From an uncultured Eubacterium sp. (GTDB lineage Bacteria; Bacillota; Clostridia; Peptostreptococcales; Anaerovoracaceae), in the NCBI GenBank assembly GCA_947367725.1, contig CANBFZ010000023.1:1-11650 (forward strand): DNA of 11,650 nucleotides, in the 5' to 3' direction. Every line of letters begins with the position of its first letter. The first letter of the stretch is position 1. Of the stretch, positions 1-11,650 are shown in pieces. The notes below the pieces were generated by a model. The model had not been told where the DNA came from. It was given only the letters and a program-made list of their open reading frames with translations, and did not search any database. A program made the translations under genes and the position numbers.

Positions 1-1269
1 CTAGGCTTGCGGAGGTTTGGAGGCAGAGCCTCCAAGGTCTTTTATCAGCCTCTCCACCTCCGCTGCCAGCGCCTCCCGGGTGTTGCGGGCAGGCTCCCGC
101 TGCACGGCATCCAGCAGCGCACCCAGTATCCGCCCGATTTCCTTTCCCGCCGGCACGCCCATTTCCATCAGGTCTTTTCCCGTAAACGCCAGTGTTTTCA
201 GCGTCAGGCAGTCCCCCGCCGCAAGGATTTCCCGTAGTATCCTCCTGCTTTCCTCATGCCCAGAATCCGGACGCAGTATTCCCTGCAAGGCCAGAAACTG
301 GAACACCGCTTCTTCCCCGGTTTCCCCCGCCAGCTTCCGCATGGGATACGGCTCCACAGGCGCATCCTCCGCAATTCTCTCCAAAAGCAGACAGACGCGC
401 TTAAGCGTCGCGCGGTCAAATTTCATGCCGTTCAAAAACTTTTCCGCCTCTTTCGGCGTATAATCCTGCAAAACAACGCACCACCGCAGTACGGAATCCT
501 GCCCGCACTGCACAAGCTCCTCCGGCAATTTCCCCGCGCGGGCAGTCAGCCGGCGGGAGAGCGCGGGGTCTATCTGCGCCAGAAGCCCGCTTTCCCAAAG
601 CAGGGACATTTTGTCACAGTAAGGCGCGCGCCAGAGCTTTTCCAGTTCCTCACGGATACGCTCCACGCTGATTTTCTGTATCAGCGCGGTATTGGCGCAG
701 AGCGCGGCATAGGTATTTTCTTCCACTTGAAACCCAAGCTGGGCGGCAAAACGCACACACCGCAGCATACGAAGCGCGTCCTCCTGAAAACGCAGGGCAG
801 GGTCCCCAACGCCGCGTATCAGCCCAGCGGCAATATCCTCCTGCCCGCCGAACGGATCGCGGAATCCTTCGTCCGGGTGGTAAGCAATGGCATTCATCGT
901 GAAATCCCGCCGAAGCAGGTCCTCCGTCAAATCTCGGGTAAAGGAAACGCTGTCCGGGTGACGGCAGTCCGCATATTTGCCGTCAATCCGGTACGTTGTG
1001 ATTTCGTAATTTGTCTTATGCAGTACAACTGTAATCGTGCCATGCTGAATGCCTGTGTCAAACGTGCGCGGAAATAACGCCGCTGTTTCCTCCGGCAGCG
1101 CGGACGTGGTGACATCCCAGTCCTGCGGGGTGCGCCGCAGTATGGAATCCCGCACACAGCCGCCAACTAAAAAGGCTTCGTGTCCTGCTGCATGCAGCAT
1201 CCGCAGCACCTCCCGCACATAAAACGGCATCCTGTGATCCACTTTGTCTTTGCCTACTTTTTCTTTCAA
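1..1269 (-). CDS. cca: CCA tRNA nucleotidyltransferase
   Basis: Adds or repairs the 3'-terminal CCA of tRNAs from CTP and ATP in the cytoplasm. The 422-residue protein shows the class II nucleotidyltransferase head: GG(C)VRD at residues 36-41, the metal-binding DWD pair (D50, D52), the RRDFTMNA motif at 120-127 and the EDALRMLR motif near 163-170. A helical tail follows, and no HD phosphohydrolase domain is recognisable; the length is usual for the bacterial class II enzyme. The start is TTG at 1269: a GGGAGG ribosome binding site lies 8 bases upstream, whereas the first ATG (residue 14) has no such site. The stop codon occupies the first three bases of the window, so the gene is complete. 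It is transcribed away from the permease and is GC-richer than the genes that follow. It appears to be a housekeeping gene unrelated to the neighbouring catabolic cluster. Confidence 0.95.
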   Translation of the reverse strand: MKEKVGKDKVDHRMPFYVREVLRMLHAAGHEAFLVGGCVRDSILRRTPQDWDVTTSALPEETAALFPRTFDTGIQHGTITVVLHKTNYEITTYRIDGKYADCRHPDSVSFTRDLTEDLLRRDFTMNAIAYHPDEGFRDPFGGQEDIAAGLIRGVGDPALRFQEDALRMLRCVRFAAQLGFQVEENTYAALCANTALIQKISVERIREELEKLWRAPYCDKMSLLWESGLLAQIDPALSRRLTARAGKLPEELVQCGQDSVLRWCVVLQDYTPKEAEKFLNGMKFDRATLKRVCLLLERIAEDAPVEPYPMRKLAGETGEEAVFQFLALQGILRPDSGHEESRRILREILAAGDCLTLKTLAFTGKDLMEMGVPAGKEIGRILGALLDAVQREPARNTREALAAEVERLIKDLGGSASKPPQA

Positions 1270-1662: not shown

Positions 1663-1677
1663 TGGCATACTCCTTGC
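1663..1677 (+). promoter_or_regulatory. Sigma-54 (-24/-12) promoter of the permease gene
   Basis: TGGCATA-N4-TTGC matches the sigma-54 consensus TGGCACG-N4-TTGC, with the invariant GG and GC at the required spacing. The GC of the -12 element is 43 bases before the permease ATG, predicting a leader of about 30 bases. Two sigma-54 activator genes lie just downstream of the permease, which supports the call. Confidence 0.85.
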
Positions 1678-1719
1678 AGTTACCTTTTTCGACAATCAAA
1701 ATGAAAAGGAGGAGAAAGA

Positions 1720-3111
1720 ATGTCAAATCAAAAAAATGTAGCAGCTGAAAATGGTGAATTTAAAAAAGAAATTTCTGTTTTCGGCGGCGTAAGTATCGTT
1801 GCCGGCATCATGATCGGTTCTGGTATTTTCTACTTAGGCTCTTATGTTCTGCAGAGAGCAAATTATGATACTGGCGTTGCACTGCTTTGCTGGCTGGTCG
1901 GCGGCGTCATCAGTTTGCTGGGCGCCCTTTGTTTCTCAGAACTGGGGTCTTCCATGCCAAAGGCTGGTGGACTCACGGTATATCTGAACGAGGTGTATCA
2001 CCCAGTCGTAGGATATATGTACGGATTCAGCCAATGGCTCATTGCAAGTCCTGGCTCTATTTCTGCCGTTGCGATCGCCATTCCTACGGCATTGATGGAA
2101 TTTTTCCCTGGTATGGGAGATATGCACATCAAGTCCATCGCCATCGTACTCATCATCTTATTTACCTTATATAATATTTTAGGTGTAAAAGAAGCGTCCG
2201 TTATGGCGAACGTGACGATGGTCGCAAAAATCGTACCGATGGCCATTATCTTAGTCGGCGCCATTATCATCGGAAATCAGATGCCGGACTTAAGTCCTGT
2301 TCCTGTAGAAGCAAGCGGCGAAACCGCCAGCTTCACCAGCGGAATCGGAATCGTCGCATTTGCTACGCTCTCTTCACTATGGGCGTATGAAGGCTGGTCC
2401 AACGTTGCGAACCTGGGTGAAGAAATGCGGAATCCACAGAAGAATCTTCCGAAAGCGCTGATTATCGGCGTAGGTTTTGTTACCGTATTCTACATCTTAT
2501 TCAACTTTGCAATTTATCGTGTTATTCCAATCGAAGAAGCAAAAGCTATGATTGAATCCGATAATGTTTACCTGGGTACAGAAGTTGCGAGACGTCTGTT
2601 TGGCGGCTTCGGCAGCATCCTGGTTGTAGTAGCCATGCTGATTGCTATGCTGGGTTCCCTCAACGGGCAGGTTCTGGCATATGCTAGAGTGGGTTATGCT
2701 ATGTCCCACGAAGGTCATTTCTTCAGAAATCAGGGCACCCTTTCCAAAAAGGGCGTTCCGGCTGTCGCGTTAATCACACAGTGCGTCATCGCCATCATTC
2801 TGGTTCTGTTCCGGAGTCTGGATCAGTTAACGACCTTAGTGGTATTCCTGGGTGCAATCGGCTCCTTGCTGGGTGTATTCGGCGTTCTGGTCAATCGTTA
2901 TCGCTTCCCAGATGCAGAAAAGCCTTACAAAGTACCTGGCGGTGCTGTAACTGTCCTGATTGCGACTTTATGTTTCGTCGGACTTCTGGTCAGCAACTTC
3001 TTAGACGACCCGATGATGTCCATCTTCGGATTGATCGTAGTGCCTGCAATCGGCGCAGTGATCTACATCTACTATGATCGTCTCAACAAAAAAGAAGCAA
3101 AAAAAGCATAA
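1720..3111 (+). CDS. APC-family amino acid/amine permease
   Basis: Predicted cytoplasmic-membrane transporter of the amino acid-polyamine-organocation superfamily. The 463-residue protein is a usual length and is made of about 12 hydrophobic segments. The family hallmark of TM1, IGSGIF, is at residues 32-37, and the APC/LAT-type signature CFSELGSSMPKAGG at 71-84 follows TM2. The C-terminus is short, lysine-rich and cytoplasmic. An AAGGAGG site lies 7 bases before the ATG. The gene has its own sigma-54 promoter and its own terminator, so it is a monocistronic unit placed upstream of the two activators. Context makes it the likely importer of the substrate handled by the downstream C-N hydrolases. 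Exchange of substrate for product (antiport), common in this superfamily, is equally possible. Substrate specificity cannot be read from the sequence. Confidence 0.92.
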   Translation: MSNQKNVAAENGEFKKEISVFGGVSIVAGIMIGSGIFYLGSYVLQRANYDTGVALLCWLVGGVISLLGALCFSELGSSMPKAGGLTVYLNEVYHPVVGYMYGFSQWLIASPGSISAVAIAIPTALMEFFPGMGDMHIKSIAIVLIILFTLYNILGVKEASVMANVTMVAKIVPMAIILVGAIIIGNQMPDLSPVPVEASGETASFTSGIGIVAFATLSSLWAYEGWSNVANLGEEMRNPQKNLPKALIIGVGFVTVFYILFNFAIYRVIPIEEAKAMIESDNVYLGTEVARRLFGGFGSILVVVAMLIAMLGSLNGQVLAYARVGYAMSHEGHFFRNQGTLSKKGVPAVALITQCVIAIILVLFRSLDQLTTLVVFLGAIGSLLGVFGVLVNRYRFPDAEKPYKVPGGAVTVLIATLCFVGLLVSNFLDDPMMSIFGLIVVPAIGAVIYIYYDRLNKKEAKKA

Positions 3112-3144
3112 AAATAGTCCTTATCATACAGGGGACGTTCCCCC

Positions 3145-3187
3145 AAATCCCCCAAGATAGACATTCGTCCTGTCCTGGGGGATTTTT
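3145..3187 (+). terminator. Intrinsic terminator after the permease
   Basis: AAATCCCCCA (3145-3154) pairs with TGGGGGATTT (3176-3185), and the right arm runs into a TTTTT tract. It starts about 35 bases after the permease stop codon. A smaller GGGGA-CGT-TCCCC hairpin (3131-3143) lies just before it and could compete for the C-run. Confidence 0.8.
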
Positions 3188-3223
3188 CAAATCTACAGAG
3201 AATTTCCAGCAGACTTCTATTGC

Positions 3224-3241
3224 ATTAGAAACAAATCTAAT
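3224..3241. promoter_or_regulatory. Possible operator dyad upstream of the activator genes
   Basis: ATTAGA and TCTAAT form a perfect 6-bp inverted repeat with a 6-base spacer, 37 bases before the first activator start codon. It could be a site for autoregulation. It is AT-rich and short, so chance is a real alternative. No -24/-12 element and no convincing -35/-10 pair was found in this 167-base gap. Confidence 0.25.
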
Positions 3242-3278
3242 TTTCAAGTTTTAAGAAACCATCTCGTGAGGATCGTAA

Positions 3279-4658
3279 ATGGAATTATCAAACTATGTAA
3301 AAGAAATTTTAAATATTTATAACTACTATGACGGCGCCATTGTCATCGACCGAAAAGGAACCATCGAATATTACTATAACAACCGCAAAGATATCAATAC
3401 GCTGACCAATGAAACCACCAGAGGAAAAAGTCTCTTCACAGTTTATCCCGAACTGACGCAAAAAAACAGTTCCATGCTGGAAGTGATTCGGACGGGAAAG
3501 CCGCTGCTGCACCAGCACCAAAGACTGACGAATTACAGAAACGAAACCTACGAAGCCTTATTCAGCACCTTTCCCATTTATATTCAGGATAAAATTGTCG
3601 GCGCTATTGAAGTCTTTTTATACCTGGAAAATCGCGAGGAACACTTAAACATTTTCATCATGAACTCAGAACTGACCGGCGCCCGTGCGCCGTATCTGCG
3701 CAACGATATTATCTCTGTCTCACCGTCTATGGAACAATTAAAGGAACGCCTGATGCAGGCTTCCCGCTCCAAGTCCACCGTTCTAATCTACGGGGAAACA
3801 GGCACAGGCAAAGAGCTGGTTGCACAGGCGCTTCACTCTAACAGTCCTAGAAACAGCAAACGATTTCTTTCCCAAAACTGCGCCGCCATTCCCGAAAATT
3901 TACTGGAAAGTATCCTGTTCGGTACAGTCAAAGGCGGATTTACCAATGCAGAAAACCATATGGGACTATTTGAAGCAGCAAACGGCGGCACCCTTTTTCT
4001 AGACGAAGTAAACTCTATGGATCTGGCAGTACAAGCCAAACTGCTGCGCGTTCTGGAGGAGCAGAAAGTCACACGAATCGGCAGTACCGAGGAAATTCCT
4101 GTGGATGTCAGGATTATCGCTGCCATGAATGAACCACCCAAAGACTGCGTCAAAAGTGGGAAGCTGCGGGAAGATTTATACTACCGCCTGCGGGTGGTAC
4201 AGCTGAATATTCCCCCACTGCGCAAGCGGAAAGAGGACATCCAGCCTTTAACAGAATACTATATTCAGTTTTTCAACCGCGCCATGCACCGCCAGATCAA
4301 AGACGTCTCCAGAGAAGTCATGGAAGCCTTCCAGCACTATACCTGGCCGGGAAACGTCAGAGAACTGCGAAATATGATCGAAAGCGGCTTCAACCTATGC
4401 GAAGGAGACATCATCGGCATGAACGATATCGACACAAAAGTGCTGCACACGGTAGAAAAAGCTGGCACAGATAGACCCATCACTGGAAACAGCTTGAAGG
4501 CAAAATCCCAGCGCTTTGAGCGTCATATCCTGAAAGAAGCACTGGCGTACTGCGGCAGTGTGACAGATGCTGCCGCCTGCCTGGGCATCAGCCGTCAAAC
4601 ACTGAGTGCAAAGATGAAGACATTACAGATTACCGAAAGTCGACGCAGAGAGGAGTGA
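3279..4658 (+). CDS. Sigma-54-dependent activator with PAS domain (first of pair)
   Basis: A bacterial enhancer-binding protein of RocR-like layout, 459 residues. A PAS-type sensor spans roughly residues 8-120. The AAA+ sigma-54 interaction domain spans roughly 140-375, with Walker A GETGTGKE at 172-179, Walker B GGTLFLDE at 236-243, an intact REDLYYRLRV segment and WPGNVREL. A Fis-type helix-turn-helix is at about 425-450. It should bind enhancer DNA and use ATP to open sigma-54 promoters, presumably at 1663 and 6172. The oddity is the sigma-54 contact loop, GGFTNA at 219-224 in place of GAFTGA: the second glycine is asparagine. The Walker motifs are intact, so ATPase activity is expected, but contact with sigma-54 may be weakened. 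A GTGAGG sequence precedes the ATG. It is co-transcribed with the next gene, a close paralogue. Confidence 0.9.
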   Translation: MELSNYVKEILNIYNYYDGAIVIDRKGTIEYYYNNRKDINTLTNETTRGKSLFTVYPELTQKNSSMLEVIRTGKPLLHQHQRLTNYRNETYEALFSTFPIYIQDKIVGAIEVFLYLENREEHLNIFIMNSELTGARAPYLRNDIISVSPSMEQLKERLMQASRSKSTVLIYGETGTGKELVAQALHSNSPRNSKRFLSQNCAAIPENLLESILFGTVKGGFTNAENHMGLFEAANGGTLFLDEVNSMDLAVQAKLLRVLEEQKVTRIGSTEEIPVDVRIIAAMNEPPKDCVKSGKLREDLYYRLRVVQLNIPPLRKRKEDIQPLTEYYIQFFNRAMHRQIKDVSREVMEAFQHYTWPGNVRELRNMIESGFNLCEGDIIGMNDIDTKVLHTVEKAGTDRPITGNSLKAKSQRFERHILKEALAYCGSVTDAAACLGISRQTLSAKMKTLQITESRRREE

Positions 4659-4662
4659 CAAA

Positions 4663-6063
4663 ATGAAAAAGCTGCGTGAATATGCACAGGAACTGCTGAA
4701 CATATACAACTATTTCAACGGTGTCATCATTTTCGACCGCCACGCCACAGCCGTATATTATTACAATAACCGTCCCGATCTCAACAACCTGCGTGACAAA
4801 GACGTCATTGGAAAAACCTTGTCTCAGATTTATCCTGAACTAGACTTATCCAAAAGCACGGTAATGAAAGCACTGAAAACTGGAAAACCAACCTCCAATC
4901 TATATCAAAAAACCAAAGATTTCAAAGGACAGATCGTACAGGAAGTCAACACGACACTTCCCATCTTTGATGGTACAGAAATCATCGGCGCCGTCGAAGC
5001 GTCCCAGTATATCATCGGCGACAATGAATGCCAAAACATCTATATCACACCGATCCACAGCGAAATGCACCACACTTGTTTCACCGTGGATGATATCATC
5101 ACCTGCAGCCCAGAAATGGAGCTGGTAAAATCAAAAATTCGTAAAGTTGCCAAAACAGATTCATCGATTCTGCTGTACGGAAAAACCGGTTCCGGCAAAG
5201 GCATGGCAGCAGAGGCAATTCATGCCGGCAGCAGAAGAAGCGGTCACCGCTTTGTCACACAAAACTGTGCCGCCATTCCAGCAAGCCTAATGGAAAGTAT
5301 TTTGTTCGGCACCATCCGGGGCAGCTTTACCGGAGCAGAAGACCGAAAAGGGCTCTTTGAAACCGCCAGCGGCGGCACCCTTTTTTTGGATGAAATCAAT
5401 AACATGGATCTGAATCTGCAGGCAAAAATTTTGAAAGCCATTGAAGAGCAGAAAATCACCAGAGTCGGAGATTACGAACCACGTCCGGTGGATGTGCGCG
5501 TCATTGCCGCAGCCAACGTGGACCCACTGCAACTGGTACAGCAGCATCTGCTTCGCGACGATCTCTACTACAGGCTCCGTGTGGTACAGATTGATTTGCC
5601 CGATTTAAAAGCGCGCAAAGAAGATATCATGCCGCTGACAGAACATTTCATCCGGCTATATAACCGATCGATGGACCGGAATATTTTAGGCGTGGATGAC
5701 AGTGTAAAAGCGCTGTTTCTTCGCTATGATTGGCCCGGCAATGTACGGGAACTTGCCAACACCATAGAAGGCGCGTTTAACTTTGCGAAAGATGCCATCC
5801 TGCATTTAGAAGACATCGGTTGGGTTTCGGAAATGGAAACAGAAATCGAAGAAGAACAGTATCCGCCGTTCCATCCCGAAGAAAATCGCCCCTTAAAAGA
5901 ACTGCTGCAAAGCTATGAGCGAGAACTGATTCTAAAAAGTATGGAAGAACACACTTCTATACAGGCGCTGCTGCGTGATCTGCAGCTCAGCAGACAGAAT
6001 TTGAACCATAAGCTGAAGCAATACGGCATAGAAAATAAATTTGACAGTTTTAAAAAATTTTAA
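4663..6063 (+). CDS. Sigma-54-dependent activator with PAS domain (second of pair)
   Basis: Paralogue of the preceding activator, 466 residues, with the same order: PAS (about 8-120), AAA+ sigma-54 domain (about 142-375), Fis-type helix-turn-helix (about 425-460). Both PAS domains share an LNIYNY motif and a YYYNNR motif, so they probably sense related ligands. The sigma-54 contact loop is GSFTGA at 220-225, close to consensus, and Walker B is GGTLFLDE at 237-244. Walker A, however, reads GKTGSGKG at 173-180 rather than the GETGTGKE usual in this family: the lysine that binds phosphate is kept, but two glutamates are replaced. Nucleotide binding or hydrolysis may be altered. A GAGGAG ribosome binding site overlaps the stop codon of the first activator, with the start 4 bases after it, which indicates translational coupling and equal supply. 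A hetero-oligomer of the two is plausible. Confidence 0.9.
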   Translation: MKKLREYAQELLNIYNYFNGVIIFDRHATAVYYYNNRPDLNNLRDKDVIGKTLSQIYPELDLSKSTVMKALKTGKPTSNLYQKTKDFKGQIVQEVNTTLPIFDGTEIIGAVEASQYIIGDNECQNIYITPIHSEMHHTCFTVDDIITCSPEMELVKSKIRKVAKTDSSILLYGKTGSGKGMAAEAIHAGSRRSGHRFVTQNCAAIPASLMESILFGTIRGSFTGAEDRKGLFETASGGTLFLDEINNMDLNLQAKILKAIEEQKITRVGDYEPRPVDVRVIAAANVDPLQLVQQHLLRDDLYYRLRVVQIDLPDLKARKEDIMPLTEHFIRLYNRSMDRNILGVDDSVKALFLRYDWPGNVRELANTIEGAFNFAKDAILHLEDIGWVSEMETEIEEEQYPPFHPEENRPLKELLQSYERELILKSMEEHTSIQALLRDLQLSRQNLNHKLKQYGIENKFDSFKKF

Positions 6064-6068
6064 CCCCG

Positions 6069-6105
6069 CTGGGCAGTCTTGCCGGTAGGGGCTTATGCCG
6101 CCCAG
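6069..6105. repeat. Imperfect hairpin upstream of the catabolic operon
   Basis: CTGGGC (6069-6074) pairs with GCCCAG (6100-6105), with possible further inner pairing. It sits just after the second activator stop. It has no T-run on either strand (AGAGAAAAAAG follows on plus), so it is at best a weak terminator for the activator genes. It is about 70-100 bases upstream of the sigma-54 promoter, so it may instead contain an activator site. It includes TGCCGGTA (6080-6087), whose complement TACCGGCA occurs at 1476-1483 upstream of the permease promoter. Confidence 0.4.
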
Positions 6106-6171
6106 AGAAAAAAGCCAGCAAATTCAACGAAAAAGCCTATCATTCTTTCACAAATTGTTCGCTTTTTTGAT

Positions 6172-6186
6172 TGGCACGAGAATTGC
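6172..6186 (+). promoter_or_regulatory. Sigma-54 (-24/-12) promoter of the catabolic operon
   Basis: TGGCACG-N4-TTGC matches the sigma-54 consensus at every defined position and continues with TATA. The GC element is 40 bases before the first start codon, nearly the same geometry as at the permease (43 bases). The paired activator genes end about 110 bases upstream. This is the clearest regulatory site in the window. Confidence 0.92.
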
Positions 6187-6225
6187 TATATAAATTGATA
6201 AAATGAAAATGGAGGTGAAGGCAAT

Positions 6226-7170
6226 ATGAGCCAAATAAAACAAGATATTGATGCAATACCAGGTGAAAGATGGTTTCCAAAAGAAACTGTTTTTGAAGAA
6301 GATATGAACGAATACTGGGGTGATTTCGGCGTCTGCTCCGAGGTCGATACCCTGCGGGCAGTGCTGATGCGCAGACCCGGTAAAGAGGTGGAGGAGTTCG
6401 ATGCTGCCAAGGTCAGATTTTCAGAAGAACCCATCGATGTGGAACTGATGAGAAAACAGCATGACGACGTTGTAAAAGTCTACACAGACTTCGGCGTCAA
6501 GGTACATTATGTAGAAAACCAGAGAGAAGACAGACCGAATGCCATCTTCTGCCGCGATCTGATGTTTATGACGCCAGAAGGCGCTATCCTGACAAGACCA
6601 GGTATGGCAGCCCGCAGAGGGGAAGAACGCTATATCGCAGAAGCGCTGGGCAAACTGGGCGTGCCAATTCTGCGCACCATTGCTGGAGACGGTATGTTTG
6701 AAGGCGCCAACGGCATGTGGGTAGACAGACACACTTGTGTGTTATCCACCGGCAGTCGCTGCAACCGAAGCGGTTATGAACAGGTAAAATACGAACTGGA
6801 ACGCATGGGCGTTGACGTATACCACATGCAGCAGCCTTACAGCAACATTCACATCGATGGACTGATGAATCCGCTAAGCCATGAAGATGTCCTGGTGCAT
6901 GCGTCACAGGTACCTTATGATATTTTAGATATGCTGAAGAAAAAAGGGTACCGCATTCTGGAAGCACCGTCTCAGAGCGAAGTAAGGGAAAACTTTGCTT
7001 GCAATTTTGTAGCGCTGGAACCGGGTCACATTCTGATGCCGGAGGGCAGCCCGAGAACCCAGGAACTGCTGGAGAACAGCGGCATAAAGGTAAAAACTGT
7101 AAACATCTCAGAAATCATGAAAGGCAAAGGTGCACTGCACTGCATCACTGCTTATCTGAAAAGAGGCTAA
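6226..7170 (+). CDS. Guanidino-group hydrolase, arginine deiminase/amidinotransferase superfamily (copy 1)
   Basis: Predicted cytoplasmic pentein-fold enzyme of 314 residues acting on a guanidino group. By comparison with arginine deiminase, the full catalytic set is visible: D111 in FCRD, E159 in FEGAN, H209 and D211 in HID, and the nucleophile C306 in GALHC near the C-terminus. These residues fit attack on the guanidinium carbon through a thiouronium intermediate, resolved by water (deiminase or dihydrolase) or by an amine (amidinotransferase). The protein is shorter than classical arginine deiminase (about 400 residues) and closer in size to DDAH-like and arginine dihydrolase-like members. 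It is the first gene after the sigma-54 promoter, with GGAGGT 9 bases before the ATG. A paralogue follows after 30 bases. The substrate is not determinable; arginine, a modified arginine or another guanidino compound are all possible. Confidence 0.85.
   Translation: MSQIKQDIDAIPGERWFPKETVFEEDMNEYWGDFGVCSEVDTLRAVLMRRPGKEVEEFDAAKVRFSEEPIDVELMRKQHDDVVKVYTDFGVKVHYVENQREDRPNAIFCRDLMFMTPEGAILTRPGMAARRGEERYIAEALGKLGVPILRTIAGDGMFEGANGMWVDRHTCVLSTGSRCNRSGYEQVKYELERMGVDVYHMQQPYSNIHIDGLMNPLSHEDVLVHASQVPYDILDMLKKKGYRILEAPSQSEVRENFACNFVALEPGHILMPEGSPRTQELLENSGIKVKTVNISEIMKGKGALHCITAYLKRG
6328..6380. repeat. Unusually conserved DNA patch shared by the two hydrolase genes
   Basis: Bases 6328-6380 and 7318-7370 differ at only 3 of 53 positions, and the first 29 bases are identical, although the two genes are otherwise clearly diverged (about 60% protein identity by eye). 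The patch encodes GVCSEVDTLRAVLMRRPG in both. Identity extends to synonymous positions, suggesting local gene conversion. Confidence 0.7.
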
Positions 7171-7200
7171 TTCGATCCCATCGTATACAAGGAGGAATTT

Positions 7201-8160
7201 ATGAACGAAAAACAGGAAATCAACAAAACTGCAGATATTGATGCGCTCCCTGGAGAGCGCTGGTTTGCAAAAGAATCTTCTATTATCGACGACATGCCAG
7301 AACTTTGGGGAGACTGGGGCGTCTGCTCCGAGGTCGATACCCTGCGCGCTGTGCTTATGCGCAGACCCGGAAAGGAAATCGAAAACTTTGACTGGCAGGC
7401 AGCTAGATTCAAAGCGCCGATTGATCCTGCGCGGTTTCGGCAGCAGCACGACGCCCTGGCACAGATTTACAGAGATCACGGCGCAACAGTCCACTATATT
7501 GAAGAACAGCGGGAAGACCGTCCCAATGCACTGTTCTGCCGCGATTTGGTTTTCATGACCCCGGAAGGCGCCATTGTAACAAGACCTGCCATGGAAGCAA
7601 GACGAGGCGAAGAGCGGTACGCAGCTAAGAAGCTGGCAGAACTGGGTGTGCCTATCATCCGAACAGTCTGCGGCAGCGGCACTTTTGAAGGCGCCATGGG
7701 ACTGTGGATTGACCGTCATACCGTCGTCCTTGCCTCTGGCGTGCGCACCAATCGGGAAGGCTACGAAATGGTGGAACAGGAATTACGCAGAATGGGCGTT
7801 ACCCAAATCCTGCATATGCAGATTCCATACGGACACGCCCACATCGACGGCCTGTTAAATATGGCAAGCCATGATGTTGCCATGATTCACGCATCACAGG
7901 TGCCTTATGACGTATGCGATGCACTGAAGAAAAAAGGCATCAAACTGCTGGAATGTCCTTCCAGAATTGAAGCAAAAGAAAGTTTTGCCATCAACTACGT
8001 TGCCATAGAACCGGGCACCATCGTAATGCCTGCAGGCAACCCGCGCTCCCAGGAACTGCTTGAGAAAAACGGAATCAAGGTCATTCCAGTAGAATTTGAT
8101 GAAATTATGAAAGGATTCGGTGCAATCCATTGCTGCACCGCATTTTTGAAGAGAGGATAA
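7201..8160 (+). CDS. Guanidino-group hydrolase, arginine deiminase/amidinotransferase superfamily (copy 2)
   Basis: Tandem paralogue of the preceding enzyme, 319 residues, alignable over its whole length with about 60% identity by eye. The catalytic set is again complete: D115 in FCRD, E163 in FEGAM, H214 and D216 in HID, and C311 in GAIHCC, where a second cysteine follows directly. A visible active-site difference is methionine (M166) where copy 1 has asparagine (N162), two residues after FEG, a stretch that lines the substrate pocket in relatives. Both copies keep the residues for chemistry, so neither looks like a dead subunit. They may act on different substrates or successive guanidino intermediates, or form a hetero-oligomer. 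An AGGAGG site lies 5 bases before the ATG, and the spacing of 30 bases indicates the same transcript. Confidence 0.85.
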   Translation: MNEKQEINKTADIDALPGERWFAKESSIIDDMPELWGDWGVCSEVDTLRAVLMRRPGKEIENFDWQAARFKAPIDPARFRQQHDALAQIYRDHGATVHYIEEQREDRPNALFCRDLVFMTPEGAIVTRPAMEARRGEERYAAKKLAELGVPIIRTVCGSGTFEGAMGLWIDRHTVVLASGVRTNREGYEMVEQELRRMGVTQILHMQIPYGHAHIDGLLNMASHDVAMIHASQVPYDVCDALKKKGIKLLECPSRIEAKESFAINYVAIEPGTIVMPAGNPRSQELLEKNGIKVIPVEFDEIMKGFGAIHCCTAFLKRG

Positions 8161-8165
8161 GCAAC

Positions 8166-9797
8166 ATGAAACAGGTATTTACGAACGGTAAGATCAGAAC
8201 CATCGATGCAGAAAATACGCTTTATGAAGCAATGTTTTGCGAAGACGGCGTCATCTCAGCCCTGGGCACCACAGAAGAAATGCTGAAACTGGCAAAAGAC
8301 GGCGAAGTCATTGACCTGGGTGGAAGAGATGTTTTGCCCGGCTTTATCGACGCCCACATTCATCTTTTGAACCACGCCATCTTTGAAAAGAAAACCGCAT
8401 CCCTGGGCGCTGCCCGCAGCGCTGACGAAATGGTGGAAATCGTAAAGCAGTATATCAAGGACAACCAGATTCCTGACGGTGCGTGGGTCACCGGATTTGG
8501 ATGGGACCAGGAAGTATTTCCGGGCGGCGAATTTCCAACAGTCAACGATTTAGATCGAATTTCTGATACCCATCCGATTATGCTGGACAGACGCTGCGGC
8601 ACCATCTGCGCCGCTAACTCGATGGCGCTGAAAATCGCCGGCATTGATAAAAACACACCTGATCCCCAGGGCGGCGAACTGGTGCGATTTGCTGACGGTT
8701 CCCCAACCGGCGTTATGCTGGAAAGCGCCATGAGTTTGATTGGCGATCACGTGCCAAAGCTAACTGATAAACTGCAGATGAAAGAACTGCTGCAATTCTC
8801 CTTCCGTGAAATGGTGAAAAACGGCGTAACTGTATGCCATACGGAAGACTTCTATTCTGTGGACGATAAGCGTGCCCTCTGGGAAGCCTATCTGGAACTC
8901 TGCGCAGAAGGAAATATGCCGATTGATCTGGTTCTGCAGCTGCGCATTCACAGACCTGACCAGCTGCAGGAATTCTTTGACTACGGATTCCGCTCCTGGC
9001 AGCGCTTTGGAAAAATTAAAATCGGTCCGATCAAGTTCTTAGGTGACGGCTCTCTCGGCGCATGGTCAGCCGCACTCAATGCACCTTACAGCGATAAGCC
9101 TGACAGCTGCGGCTGCCTTTACTGGGATCGGGATGAATTGTCTGCGATCGCAAGACAAATCGTCGACCATGACTTTGATTTAACCATTCATGCCATCGGC
9201 GACGCTGCAGTAGAAATCTTCCTGGACGGATGCATTTCTGTAAAAGACACCATCAAAGAAAAACAGCTGCGTCCTTCTATCATTCACAGCCAGATTATGA
9301 ACGAAGGCATCTTTGAGAAATACAAAGAAGTCGATGCCATCGGTCTGATTCAGCCGATGTATATTCATTCCGACTGGAGCATCGCAGATTCCCGCGTTGG
9401 CGAACGTATGAAGACCAGCTACTGCTTCGGCAGCATGCTGAAACAGGGCATCCGCTTGGCGGCAGGTTCTGACCTTCCAATCGAATCTGTCAATCCACTG
9501 GAAGGCATTCAGGTCAATGTAACCAGAAAAGATCTTTCTGGACAGCCAGAAGGCGGATGGTATCCGGAAGAGAAAATGAGCAGACTGGACGCAGTCAAAC
9601 TTCATACCATCTACGGCGCTTACGTTTCCAAAGACGAAGATACCCTCGGCTCACTGGAAGTCGGCAAACGGGCAAACTTTGTGGTATTGTCAGACGACGT
9701 ATTCAGTGTACCACAGGATGAAATCAAAAACATCCAAGTTATGCAAACCTATATCGACGGTAAACTAGAATTTGATATAGAGGAGGAAGAACAATGA
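8166..9797 (+). CDS. YtcJ-like metal-dependent amidohydrolase
   Basis: Predicted amidohydrolase of the YtcJ / N-substituted formamide deformylase group (amidohydrolase family 3), 543 residues, the usual length. Expected metal and catalytic residues are present: HIH at 64-66 after VLPGFIDA, K290 in the IKFLGDGSLGA segment, H342 in IHAIGDAA, H374 in IIHSQ, and D436 in AGSDLPIE. The N- and C-terminal beta-sandwich segments are present, the latter ending near VGKRANFVVL. There is no signal peptide, so it is cytoplasmic. I chose the ATG at 8166 because GAGAGG precedes it and homologous sequence begins there; an in-frame ATG at 8130 would overlap the preceding gene by 31 bases. It ends with a 4-base ATGA overlap with the next gene. 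It should hydrolyse an amide-like C-N bond; the substrate is unknown. Confidence 0.88.
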   Translation: MKQVFTNGKIRTIDAENTLYEAMFCEDGVISALGTTEEMLKLAKDGEVIDLGGRDVLPGFIDAHIHLLNHAIFEKKTASLGAARSADEMVEIVKQYIKDNQIPDGAWVTGFGWDQEVFPGGEFPTVNDLDRISDTHPIMLDRRCGTICAANSMALKIAGIDKNTPDPQGGELVRFADGSPTGVMLESAMSLIGDHVPKLTDKLQMKELLQFSFREMVKNGVTVCHTEDFYSVDDKRALWEAYLELCAEGNMPIDLVLQLRIHRPDQLQEFFDYGFRSWQRFGKIKIGPIKFLGDGSLGAWSAALNAPYSDKPDSCGCLYWDRDELSAIARQIVDHDFDLTIHAIGDAAVEIFLDGCISVKDTIKEKQLRPSIIHSQIMNEGIFEKYKEVDAIGLIQPMYIHSDWSIADSRVGERMKTSYCFGSMLKQGIRLAAGSDLPIESVNPLEGIQVNVTRKDLSGQPEGGWYPEEKMSRLDAVKLHTIYGAYVSKDEDTLGSLEVGKRANFVVLSDDVFSVPQDEIKNIQVMQTYIDGKLEFDIEEEEQ

Positions 9798-10612
9798 GAA
9801 AGAACTGGCCGGAAGGCGTAAAAATGGGCGTCGCCCTGACATTTGACCTGGATGCGGAAACCTTTTGGTTTTCCCGCACCATGGACAGCTTAAACAACCC
9901 GAATCTGATGGCAGAGGGCGCATATGGTCCAAAGGTTGGCGTACCAAGAATTTTAGACATGCTGGACAGACAGCAGCTGAAAGCAACATTCTTTATTCCT
10001 GGCTGGGTCATCGAACAGCACACAGAAATCTGTCGTGAAATTGTAAGACGAGGTCATGAAATCGGATATCACGGTTATCTCCATGAAACCACTTATTTCC
10101 CGGAACAGGATAAAGAGCTGGTTGCCAAATCCAAAAAAATCATGAAAGAACTGCTGGGTGTTGAGCCGCTGGGCTACAGGGCTCCAGAAGCAATCCTGAC
10201 GGAAGAAACCATTCGGAATGTTATGGCAAGCGGCTTTGAATATTCTTCAAACACAATGGCATGCGACTGGCCTTATTACCACGAAAGTGAAGACGGGCAG
10301 AAATTAATCGAATTGCCGTTTTCCTGGCTGTACGACGATACGTCTCACTTCTTCTTCACCCTGCAGCAGCCGGAAAGAAGAAGAATCTGTTCACCTCAGT
10401 ATGTGCGGGATATCTGGCAAAGCGAGTTTGACGGGCTTTATGAGGAAAGTGGTCTCATGACCCTGGTACTGCACCCACAGTGCATCGGAAGAGTCAGCCG
10501 CATCAACATGCTGGAAGACTTGATCTGCTACATGAAAACCAAGCCGGGAGTTGCAATCGGACCGGCACTGGAAATCAGCAGACTCGCTCGTAAAGGATTA
10601 AATCAAGCATAA
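9794..10612 (+). CDS. NodB-fold hydrolase, cyclic imide hydrolase/allantoinase-like
   Basis: A polysaccharide-deacetylase-fold protein of 272 residues. The metal site has the TFDLD form at 16-20 (D18, D20) instead of TFDDG, together with H93 and H97 in HGYLHE, RAPEA at 129-133 and the late histidine H227 in LHPQ. This pattern resembles the PuuE allantoinase / cyclic imide hydrolase branch, whose members open cyclic imide, hydantoin-like or ureide rings, although some peptidoglycan deacetylases belong to it too. No signal peptide or membrane anchor is seen, so an intracellular small-molecule role is more likely than cell-wall work. Its start codon overlaps the stop of the amidohydrolase gene (ATGA), with GAGGAGG upstream, implying tight translational coupling. 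It is the last gene of the operon. Confidence 0.82.
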   Translation: MRKNWPEGVKMGVALTFDLDAETFWFSRTMDSLNNPNLMAEGAYGPKVGVPRILDMLDRQQLKATFFIPGWVIEQHTEICREIVRRGHEIGYHGYLHETTYFPEQDKELVAKSKKIMKELLGVEPLGYRAPEAILTEETIRNVMASGFEYSSNTMACDWPYYHESEDGQKLIELPFSWLYDDTSHFFFTLQQPERRRICSPQYVRDIWQSEFDGLYEESGLMTLVLHPQCIGRVSRINMLEDLICYMKTKPGVAIGPALEISRLARKGLNQA

Positions 10613-10649: not shown

Positions 10650-10688
10650 CGCAGTGTGCCCGGTGGAAGTTCCACCGGGCACACTGCG
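10650..10688 (-). terminator. Strong hairpin, terminator mainly for the kor genes
   Basis: A perfect 19-bp inverted repeat centred on 10669 (arms 10650-10668 and 10670-10688), GC-rich. On the minus strand it is followed by TTTTTCAATT, giving a classical intrinsic terminator for transcripts from korB-korC. On the plus strand it begins 37 bases after the operon stop but lacks a T-run, so termination of the catabolic operon here would rest on the stem alone. Confidence 0.75.
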
Positions 10689-10776: not shown

Positions 10777-11325
10777 TTATTTGGAAGCAGCGCCGATTGC
10801 GAAGCCTTTTTCAAAGGCTTCTAAGTTCATCGGCAGAAATTCTGGTTTTTTCTTACCCAGCTTGTTCTTAATGGTTTCGATAATAACCTCTTTTGGAACA
10901 ACTTCTGTTGCACCGATATAAGCGCCCAGCATGATGATGTTGAGAACTTTTGGATTTCCCATTTCCAGTGCCATTTCGGTAACTGGTACTCTGACAACTT
11001 TTACATCGTCTCTCTCGATTGGAGACAGTACGATGGAGCTGTTGATGAACAGAATACCGTCCTTCTTCAGTTTCGGGAGGAATCTGTTCAGGGAAGGATC
11101 GTTCATGACGATTAAATCTTCCACCGCATCCATTACAGGCGCACCGATTTCGTCATCGGAGATTACTACATAGCAGTTTGCAGTGCCCCCACGCATTTCA
11201 GCGCCGTAGGAAGGGAAATACGTTACGTGTTTATCAGTCGATTCGCAGGTTGCCTGTGCCAGAAGGGTTCCCAGCATCATAACGCCCTGTCCGCCGAATC
11301 CGGCAACAATTAAATTTCTTTCCAT
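10777..11325 (-). CDS. korC: 2-oxoacid:ferredoxin oxidoreductase, gamma subunit
   Basis: Gamma subunit of a ferredoxin-linked 2-oxoacid oxidoreductase (2-oxoglutarate or branched-chain type), 182 residues, the usual length. The typical opening is seen: a short strand then GFGGQGVMMLG at about residues 9-19, followed by YFPSYGAEMRGG, which is characteristic of the Kor/Vor gamma family. It works with the thiamine-diphosphate beta subunit encoded immediately upstream to decarboxylate a 2-oxoacid to an acyl-CoA, reducing ferredoxin, in the cytoplasm. The start at 11325 is preceded by AGGAGG, which overlaps the 3' end of the beta gene; a longer frame starting inside that gene is not credible. The gap between the two genes is 4 bases. 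The exact 2-oxoacid cannot be assigned. Confidence 0.9.
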   Translation of the reverse strand: MERNLIVAGFGGQGVMMLGTLLAQATCESTDKHVTYFPSYGAEMRGGTANCYVVISDDEIGAPVMDAVEDLIVMNDPSLNRFLPKLKKDGILFINSSIVLSPIERDDVKVVRVPVTEMALEMGNPKVLNIIMLGAYIGATEVVPKEVIIETIKNKLGKKKPEFLPMNLEAFEKGFAIGAASK

Positions 11326-11329
11326 CTTC

Positions 11330-11650
11330 TTACTCCTCCTTTGTCTTATCTCTGAATACGCCCAGAGGGAACTCAGCAAGCATCTTTTCTTCTAAGAAGT
11401 CCAGTGCTTTCATTTCGTTCAGACCCCAGTTGGTCGGGCAGGAAGTTACGATTTCAACCATGGAGAAGCCTTTCCCGTCAACCTGTGCCTGGAAAGCCTT
11501 TTTAATTGCTGCTTTTGTCTTACGAACGTTAGCAGGCGTATTGCAGGAGGTTCTTTCCAGATATACCGGTGCAGTCAACTGATTCAGCACTTCGCACATG
11601 TGAATTGGATAACCGTGTTCCTTCGGATCTCTGCCCTTTGGAGCAGTGGA
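11330..11650 (-). CDS. korB: 2-oxoacid:ferredoxin oxidoreductase, beta (TPP) subunit, 3' part only
   Basis: The frame is open to the window edge, so only the C-terminal 106 residues are seen and the start is outside. Near the edge lies a family-typical segment, PKGRDPKEHGYPIH, followed by a helix and TSCPTNWGLNEMKALDFLEE, then FPLGVFRD just before the end. This is the usual C-terminus of the Kor/Vor beta subunit, which carries thiamine diphosphate and works with the alpha and gamma subunits. The TPP-binding motif itself is not in the window. The methionine at 11599 is internal, not a start. The alpha subunit and perhaps a small ferredoxin subunit are expected further upstream on this strand. 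Confidence 0.9.
   Translation of the reverse strand, partial: STAPKGRDPKEHGYPIHMCEVLNQLTAPVYLERTSCNTPANVRKTKAAIKKAFQAQVDGKGFSMVEIVTSCPTNWGLNEMKALDFLEEKMLAEFPLGVFRDKTKEE

Follow-up and report, generated by a model that had tools for sequence, protein, structure and literature searches.

What does a run of seven genes that joins one permease and two sigma-54 activators to four hydrolases do for its host? The run lies in an 11,650-nucleotide stretch of DNA (here the window) from an uncultured Eubacterium sp., contig CANBFZ010000023.1 of assembly GCA_947367725.1, and a first-pass annotation had described it as a self-contained sigma-54 regulon for a guanidino or ureido compound. All its parts belong to known superfamilies, and the locus is a real, conserved and modular variant of known chemistry. 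We give about an even chance to the reading that it is a sigma-54-controlled catabolic operon for an amide-bound guanidino amino acid (acylated, peptide-like or a lactam). The host belongs with the gut bacteria of the Anaerovoracaceae, as a relative of Emergencia, and its assembly (G000) comprises 2.12 Mb in 360 contigs and is 73.6% complete; the kinship of this and the other genomes carrying a G label was taken from database labels.

Gene content and sigma-54 control

The seven genes are all on the plus strand, in the order APC permease, ACT1, ACT2, DDAH1, DDAH2, YtcJ and PuuE-like, where DDAH1 and DDAH2 are working names for the two enzymes of arginine-deiminase (ADI) fold. The permease, two activators and four hydrolases that had been read from the sequence are all present and their family assignments hold in Pfam.

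1663-1678, plus strand: sigma-54 (-24/-12) promoter 1, TGGCATACTCCTTGCA, 41 bp before the permease
1720-3111, plus strand: APC amino-acid permease, 463 aa (PF13520, 200 bits)
3145-3185, plus strand: terminator-like hairpin 3' of the permease, with a U run at its end (folding against shuffles)
3279-4658, plus strand: ACT1, sigma-54 activator with PAS-like, AAA+ and Fis-type HTH domains (PF00158, PF25601, PF02954)
4663-6063, plus strand: ACT2, another sigma-54 activator, built like ACT1 (PF00158, PF25601, HTH_50)
6172-6187, plus strand: sigma-54 promoter 2, TGGCACGAGAATTGCT, 38 bp before DDAH1
6226-7170, plus strand: DDAH1, presumed guanidino hydrolase, a short protein of ADI fold, 314 aa (family and active-site motifs)
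7201-8160, plus strand: DDAH2, paralogue of DDAH1, 319 aa (same active-site motifs)
8166-9797, plus strand: YtcJ-type Amidohydro_3 hydrolase (PF07969, 294.6 bits), probably starting at the ATG at 8166
9794-10612, plus strand: PuuE-like NodB-superfamily hydrolase (PF01522, Polysacc_deac_1), with a 4-bp overlap with the YtcJ stop
10650-10688, no strand assigned: 18-bp terminator-like hairpin at the operon end (folding against shuffles)
1-1269, minus strand: tRNA CCA nucleotidyltransferase gene, left flank of the run
10777-11379, minus strand: 2-oxoacid:ferredoxin oxidoreductase gamma gene, right flank of the run

Both promoters fit TGGCAYRN4TTGCW with zero mismatch. Shuffled windows contained a mean of 0.63 matches at one mismatch or fewer and 31 of 200 shuffles reached two; the two matches in the window alone are mildly unusual and only suggestive. 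We accept them as real because upstream sites recur before the homologous genes of relatives (DDAH-clade genes) and are rare in controls. A site with at least 10 of the 12 positions was found within 200 bp upstream of 44 of 100 DDAH-clade genes, compared with 6 of 444 control ORFs taken from those loci and about 0.2% of upstream regions after shuffling. L046, L047 and L099, which lie on the same contigs as L075, L078 and L076, were dropped from these site counts, as well as from the tree and the pair survey below, and the distant paralogues L011-L013 fell outside the tblastn set and hence outside the site counts and the survey; the contig on which the L097 site was read stops close to DDAH1. 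The APC gene is likewise preceded by a site scoring 10/12 or better in L074, L075, L076 and L078, while in L101 none was found before APC, though one was found before DDAH1. Three loci with a rearranged gene order (L075, L076 and L078) score 10/12 or better before the permease and YtcJ units, and their DDAH1 site scores 10/12 in L075 and 9/12 in the other two, the range across all units being 9-12/12. Outside the family (ten loci, L085-L094) all 11 clade genes lacked a site of 10/12 or better, and mapping showed no activator homologue. RpoN was found in 7/7 genomes searched, i.e. the six with the full gene set and G390. The -24/-12 promoters, an activator and RpoN in the genome, by which a sigma-54 regulon is recognized, are thus all found here, and the sigma-54 control proposed earlier is borne out by the zero-mismatch sites, the upstream enrichment in relatives and RpoN.

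The hairpin at 3145-3185 (71-nt fold, -30.6 kcal/mol, z -4.6, 0/200 shuffles as good) follows the permease gene, and the permease is therefore probably the only gene transcribed from promoter 1, promoter 2 serving the four enzymes. The operon-end hairpin folds at -39.5 kcal/mol over 61 nt (z -6.2). No Rfam family matched within the window.

Both ACT1 and ACT2 have an AAA+ sigma-54 domain and an HTH in Pfam, where the N-terminal domain had no match at 1e-3. The model of the ACT1 N-domain (mean pLDDT 82) matches PAS domains, the best match being that of CitA (E 8e-6, probability 1.00, TM 0.54 by query length), and the ACT2 N-domain aligns with that of ACT1 at 35% identity, in an alignment without L065, which an earlier one had misplaced. 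With this PAS-like model "sensor-activator" is therefore a fair name.

The enzyme pair and its partner hydrolases

DDAH1 and DDAH2 are 64-65% identical and, as the first-pass annotation had recognized, the ADI-type active-site motifs are complete in both. In DDAH1 the active-site residues are N105, D111, R124, E159, R178, H209, D211 and C306, to which we assign roles that we take to be those of N160, D166, R185, R243 and D280 in ADI and of R85 and R132 in DDAH. The catalytic Cys, the His, the HxD Asp (the motif being HIDG in both enzymes) and the RD Asp of arginine deiminase, with these presumed roles, are present in the pair, and the DDAH1 model and the motifs give the fold and the catalytic Cys/His of the guanidino-modifying (ADI/AGAT) superfamily. 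The best reading of these residues is that the pair would hydrolyse a free guanidino group on an amino acid, which is preferred because the active site is of the ADI type (HxD) and not the HxK of DDAH. It is quite improbable that DDAH1 and DDAH2 are instead amidinotransferases in a biosynthetic or interconverting operon. The amidinotransferases AGAT, SxtG and StrB1 have their fold in common with DDAH1, and members of the DDAH clade bear source names such as dimethylarginine dimethylaminohydrolase or amidinotransferase.

The putative metal-ligand motifs of YtcJ are complete and kept in its orthologues (YtcJA), with roles that are presumably those of the amidohydrolases. It belongs to the Amidohydro_3 family by score (PF07969, 294.6 bits against 29.7) as well as by these motifs, and the earlier assignment to a YtcJ-type amidohydrolase stands. 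Among the members of this family are an aminoacylase, a formamide deformylase and a recently recognized class of bile-salt hydrolases (PMC13081902), and because of these members YtcJ likely cleaves amides.

The PuuE-like protein carries the DxD and HxxxH metal motif and belongs to the NodB/CE4 superfamily. Among solved structures it is closest to 3rxz (158 bits, with the deposited name "polysaccharide deacetylase") and next to 3qbu (112 bits), with the PuuE allantoinase 3cl6 behind them at only 67 bits. The PuuE allantoinase model TIGR03212 gave 70.1 bits against a cut-off of 424.6. Likeness to the cyclic-imide hydrolase or allantoinase that had been proposed is therefore at superfamily level only. 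In L058 (12125-12970) and L109 (from 7122) a further copy, PuuEc, has lost the metal-binding D and the first H and stands beside PuuEb, which retains them; PuuEc is possibly a metal-free partner.

Conservation and modular arrangement

Six genomes, counting that of the window, carry the complete set of seven genes. G414 and G924, of the same genus, share the window's gene order, and in G028, G920 and G128 the set is rearranged and contains an extra Amidohydro_3 gene, YtcJB. L075 additionally holds an alanine-dehydrogenase-like gene (AlaDH), a MATE gene and a gene of the PF01177 racemase family. In a seventh locus (G390), YtcJB, DDAH2, YtcJA and the PuuE-like gene share a 5-kb contig and the set is cut by the contig end. 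A PuuE-like query matched 6/393 genomes of the order at E of 1e-60 or below (the window's included), and 6/6 of these have a DDAH-clade gene in the same cluster. The clade itself was found in 34/349 genomes of the family and 10/398 drawn from the phylum, G000 being in both counts. Gene counts per locus come from tblastn mapping. The search for co-occurrence could have found these genes scattered, which would have spoken against the regulon as first described; all seven were found together in six genomes.

Part of the set travels more widely. The loci were picked for DDAH-clade or PuuE-like genes, and the fractions that follow describe those loci (L081, L083 and L084 were dropped; the close relatives L044/L045 and L097/L098 are nearly identical and do not count as independent). 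The DDAH1/DDAH2 pair was present in 23 of 70 non-duplicate loci with DDAH-clade genes, in 20 genomes, with an activator within 8 kb in 22/23 and a transporter in 21/23 (APC in 9, NhaC-type in 12). The hydrolases beside it are YtcJ and PuuE in 6 loci, an M28-type enzyme in 12 and a PuuE-like one without YtcJ in 1. None was mapped in the remaining 4 (L097, whose contig ends near DDAH1, L098, L100 and L108), and in L108 neither activator nor transporter was seen beside the pair. One genome, G924, has three pairs with different partners. Single DDAH-clade genes accompany peptide-type ABC transporters. We disregarded the Sir2, SurE, ECF and ribonucleotide-reductase genes that lie close to some of the loci, taking them for housekeeping neighbours.

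DDAH1 (37 rows, support 100/100) and DDAH2 (26 rows, 100/99) form separate clades in a maximum-likelihood tree of 102 rows. The tree has open forks and long branches and only these two clades were used. Each clade mixes window-type, M28-type and minimal loci, and because of this mixture the pair looks older than the choice of hydrolase. The constant core is the permease, activator and DDAH1/DDAH2, with YtcJ/PuuE as one hydrolase module among several that can replace one another. The term "self-contained" thus understated the case, the enzyme pair being a reusable module found elsewhere with other hydrolases and transporters. Some pair loci without a mapped hydrolase, together with the M28 swap, favour the pair as the core and the hydrolases as front ends. 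A broader reading, tentative and somewhat short of even, is that the Anaerovoracaceae carry plug-in sigma-54 cassettes in which an ancient and perhaps obligate ADI-fold pair goes with transporters, sensors and amide hydrolases that can be exchanged, each cassette being tuned to a different gut guanidino conjugate. The pair would then be an undescribed guanidino-hydrolase clade, possibly a heteromer or two matched activities.

The same arrangements bear on the order of steps first suggested, in which the ADI pair acts first and YtcJ/PuuE then work on the ureido product or a cyclised, hydantoin-like form of it, by ring opening or carbamoyl removal. PF01177 genes (Asp/Glu/hydantoin-racemase) are clustered with PuuE-like and DDAH-clade genes in L058 and L046/L075 (40.3 bits), one lies near a DDAH-clade gene in L060, and several gene layouts link PuuE-like hydrolases to DDAH-clade genes, all of which would suit that order. 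We consider it unlikely nevertheless, given a PuuE score of 70 against 424.6 and M28-type hydrolases in a similar place in 12 loci, which fits amide hydrolysis over ring opening. Of the pathway sketched in the first-pass annotation, guanidino conversion survives as the best reading of the residues, and the cyclic-imide/allantoinase-like label is not supported in the form given.

Glycated arginine is a less probable substrate still. Here PuuE/YtcJ would open the imidazolone of MG-H1 to carboxyethylarginine, from which the DDAH-like pair would give alanine and citrulline. The AlaDH gene between PuuE and YtcJB in L046/L075 (TIGR00518, 369.7 bits, just under the cut-off of 391.85) points that way, but AlaDH was mapped in 1/7 window-type loci and the HxD of ADI, not the HxK of DDAH, argues against an N-substituted guanidine, if the residue has the role we assume, and we hold this route to be rather improbable.

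Several further arrangements were seen. The window's own assembly has another tandem pair of the clade, more distant (45-50% identical), in L010 (G000:C62, 1236-3167). It is accompanied by an NhaC-type antiporter and by a DegT-like aminotransferase, an arrangement conserved in two genomes of the same genus (L120, L121). TauE/SafE-type exporter genes occur near DDAH-clade genes in L063, L102 and L105, also in L050 and L066, hinting at an exported anionic product. In L059 (6711-10075) a gene of the diaminopimelate-decarboxylase family stands between two DDAH-clade genes.

A proposed route and its relation to known systems

In the operon for an amide-bound guanidino amino acid, the PAS-type activators would sense the compound or a related signal and, with RpoN, switch on the two promoters. 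The APC permease would import the compound, the YtcJ and PuuE-like hydrolases would cut amide bonds, and DDAH1/DDAH2, as thiol enzymes of arginine-deiminase fold, would convert the free guanidino group to ureido plus ammonia. A citrulline-type product could enter the separate arcB-arcC route of the cell and yield ATP. Of this, the analysis tested the sigma-54 layout, the gene conservation and the motifs of the active sites; the import, the step order, the amide cleavage and the substrate are inferred. Two loci weigh against a strict linkage of PuuE-like and DDAH-clade genes: in L081 (G000:C5, truncated at the end of its contig) and in L079 a PuuE-like gene is seen and a DDAH gene is not.

The PuuE-like gene of L081 (1-642) is 82% identical, sits shortly upstream of what by eye looks like an EF-Tu gene, and represents a second locus in the window's own assembly or a strain mixture. 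That of L079 (169-975), also 82% identical, adjoins an NhaC-type antiporter on a Treponema-labelled 3.3-kb contig that may reflect transfer or a binning error. In an Atribacteria-labelled locus, L080 (8940-12007), a PuuE-like gene (66%) and a DDAH-clade gene (68%) are accompanied by an aspartoacylase-type gene and by a peptide-type ABC transporter.

The genes of the arginine route, arcA, OTC and arcC, were matched in 7/7 host genomes, with arcA over its cut-off in 6. Their presence could suggest that the operon supplements the use of arginine, agmatine or peptide-arginine, no new substrate being involved. This is improbable, since ArcA is already there and up to three DDAH1/DDAH2 pairs per genome (G924) suggest distinct substrates. 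Creatinine is very improbable. PuuE would open its ring, the ADI pair would give N-carbamoylsarcosine and YtcJ sarcosine, a route that is chemically plausible, and in the creatinine fermenter T. creatinophila creatine amidinohydrolase genes were not detected (PMC5364220), which leaves room there for another route. On the other side, GRDB (PF07355, glycine/sarcosine/betaine reductase B) is present in only 3/7 host genomes and was not found in G414 (98% complete), G924, G028 or G000, and the ADI residues that presumably hold the amino-acid end are kept. Creatinine and glycated arginine are thus both weakly supported as substrates.

In the open-access literature, which leaves most subscription papers outside and for which some queries were perhaps too strict, we found no description of this gene set, of the paired clade or of the hydrolase swap, in agreement with the initial statement that no described pathway has this set. 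If the amide-bound reading is true, it would be an undescribed way for gut bacteria of the Emergencia group to live on guanidino compounds from the diet or the host. Some guanidino compounds are known as uraemic solutes. Within the arginine-deiminase superfamily a distinct clade is delimited as well, and the conserved pair with its swappable hydrolases means that several operons offer leads to the substrate.

Among known systems, PrdR has the same PAS-like, AAA+ and HTH build as the activators and is the best NCBIfam match of both. ACT1 and ACT2 score 333.2 and 301.5 bits against its cut-off of 795 (NF041552) and align only to PrdR residues 128-577. The permease was below the cut-offs of all 25 NCBIfam models listed of 28 matched. 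Arginine deiminase is larger (about 410 aa against 314-319 aa in the pair), its EGGD motif is EGA[N/M] in the pair, and its model (TIGR01078, cut-off 489.1) gave 54.8 and 73.1 bits. DDAH is similar in size, the Arg positions of the pair align with those of DDAH, and the catalytic His and Cys are common to both; its models nevertheless scored below cut-off (101.8/78.9 bits against 340 for NF045660; 73.5/58.6 against 450 for NF045658). Furthermore, the genome's own DDAH-like proteins (L012, L013) have HxK where the pair has HxD and are set off from it by a very long tree branch. The nitrohydrolase NnhA (2-nitroimidazole nitrohydrolase) is 18% identical and has a different named substrate. The window YtcJ is under the cut-off of all 25 NCBIfam models listed of 30 matched, and has its family and putative metal motifs in common with the PF07969 amidohydrolases (YtcJ, NfdA, aminoacylases, metalloBSH). 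Finally, the PuuE-like protein shares with the NodB-superfamily deacetylases a DxD/HxxxH motif as in 3rxz.
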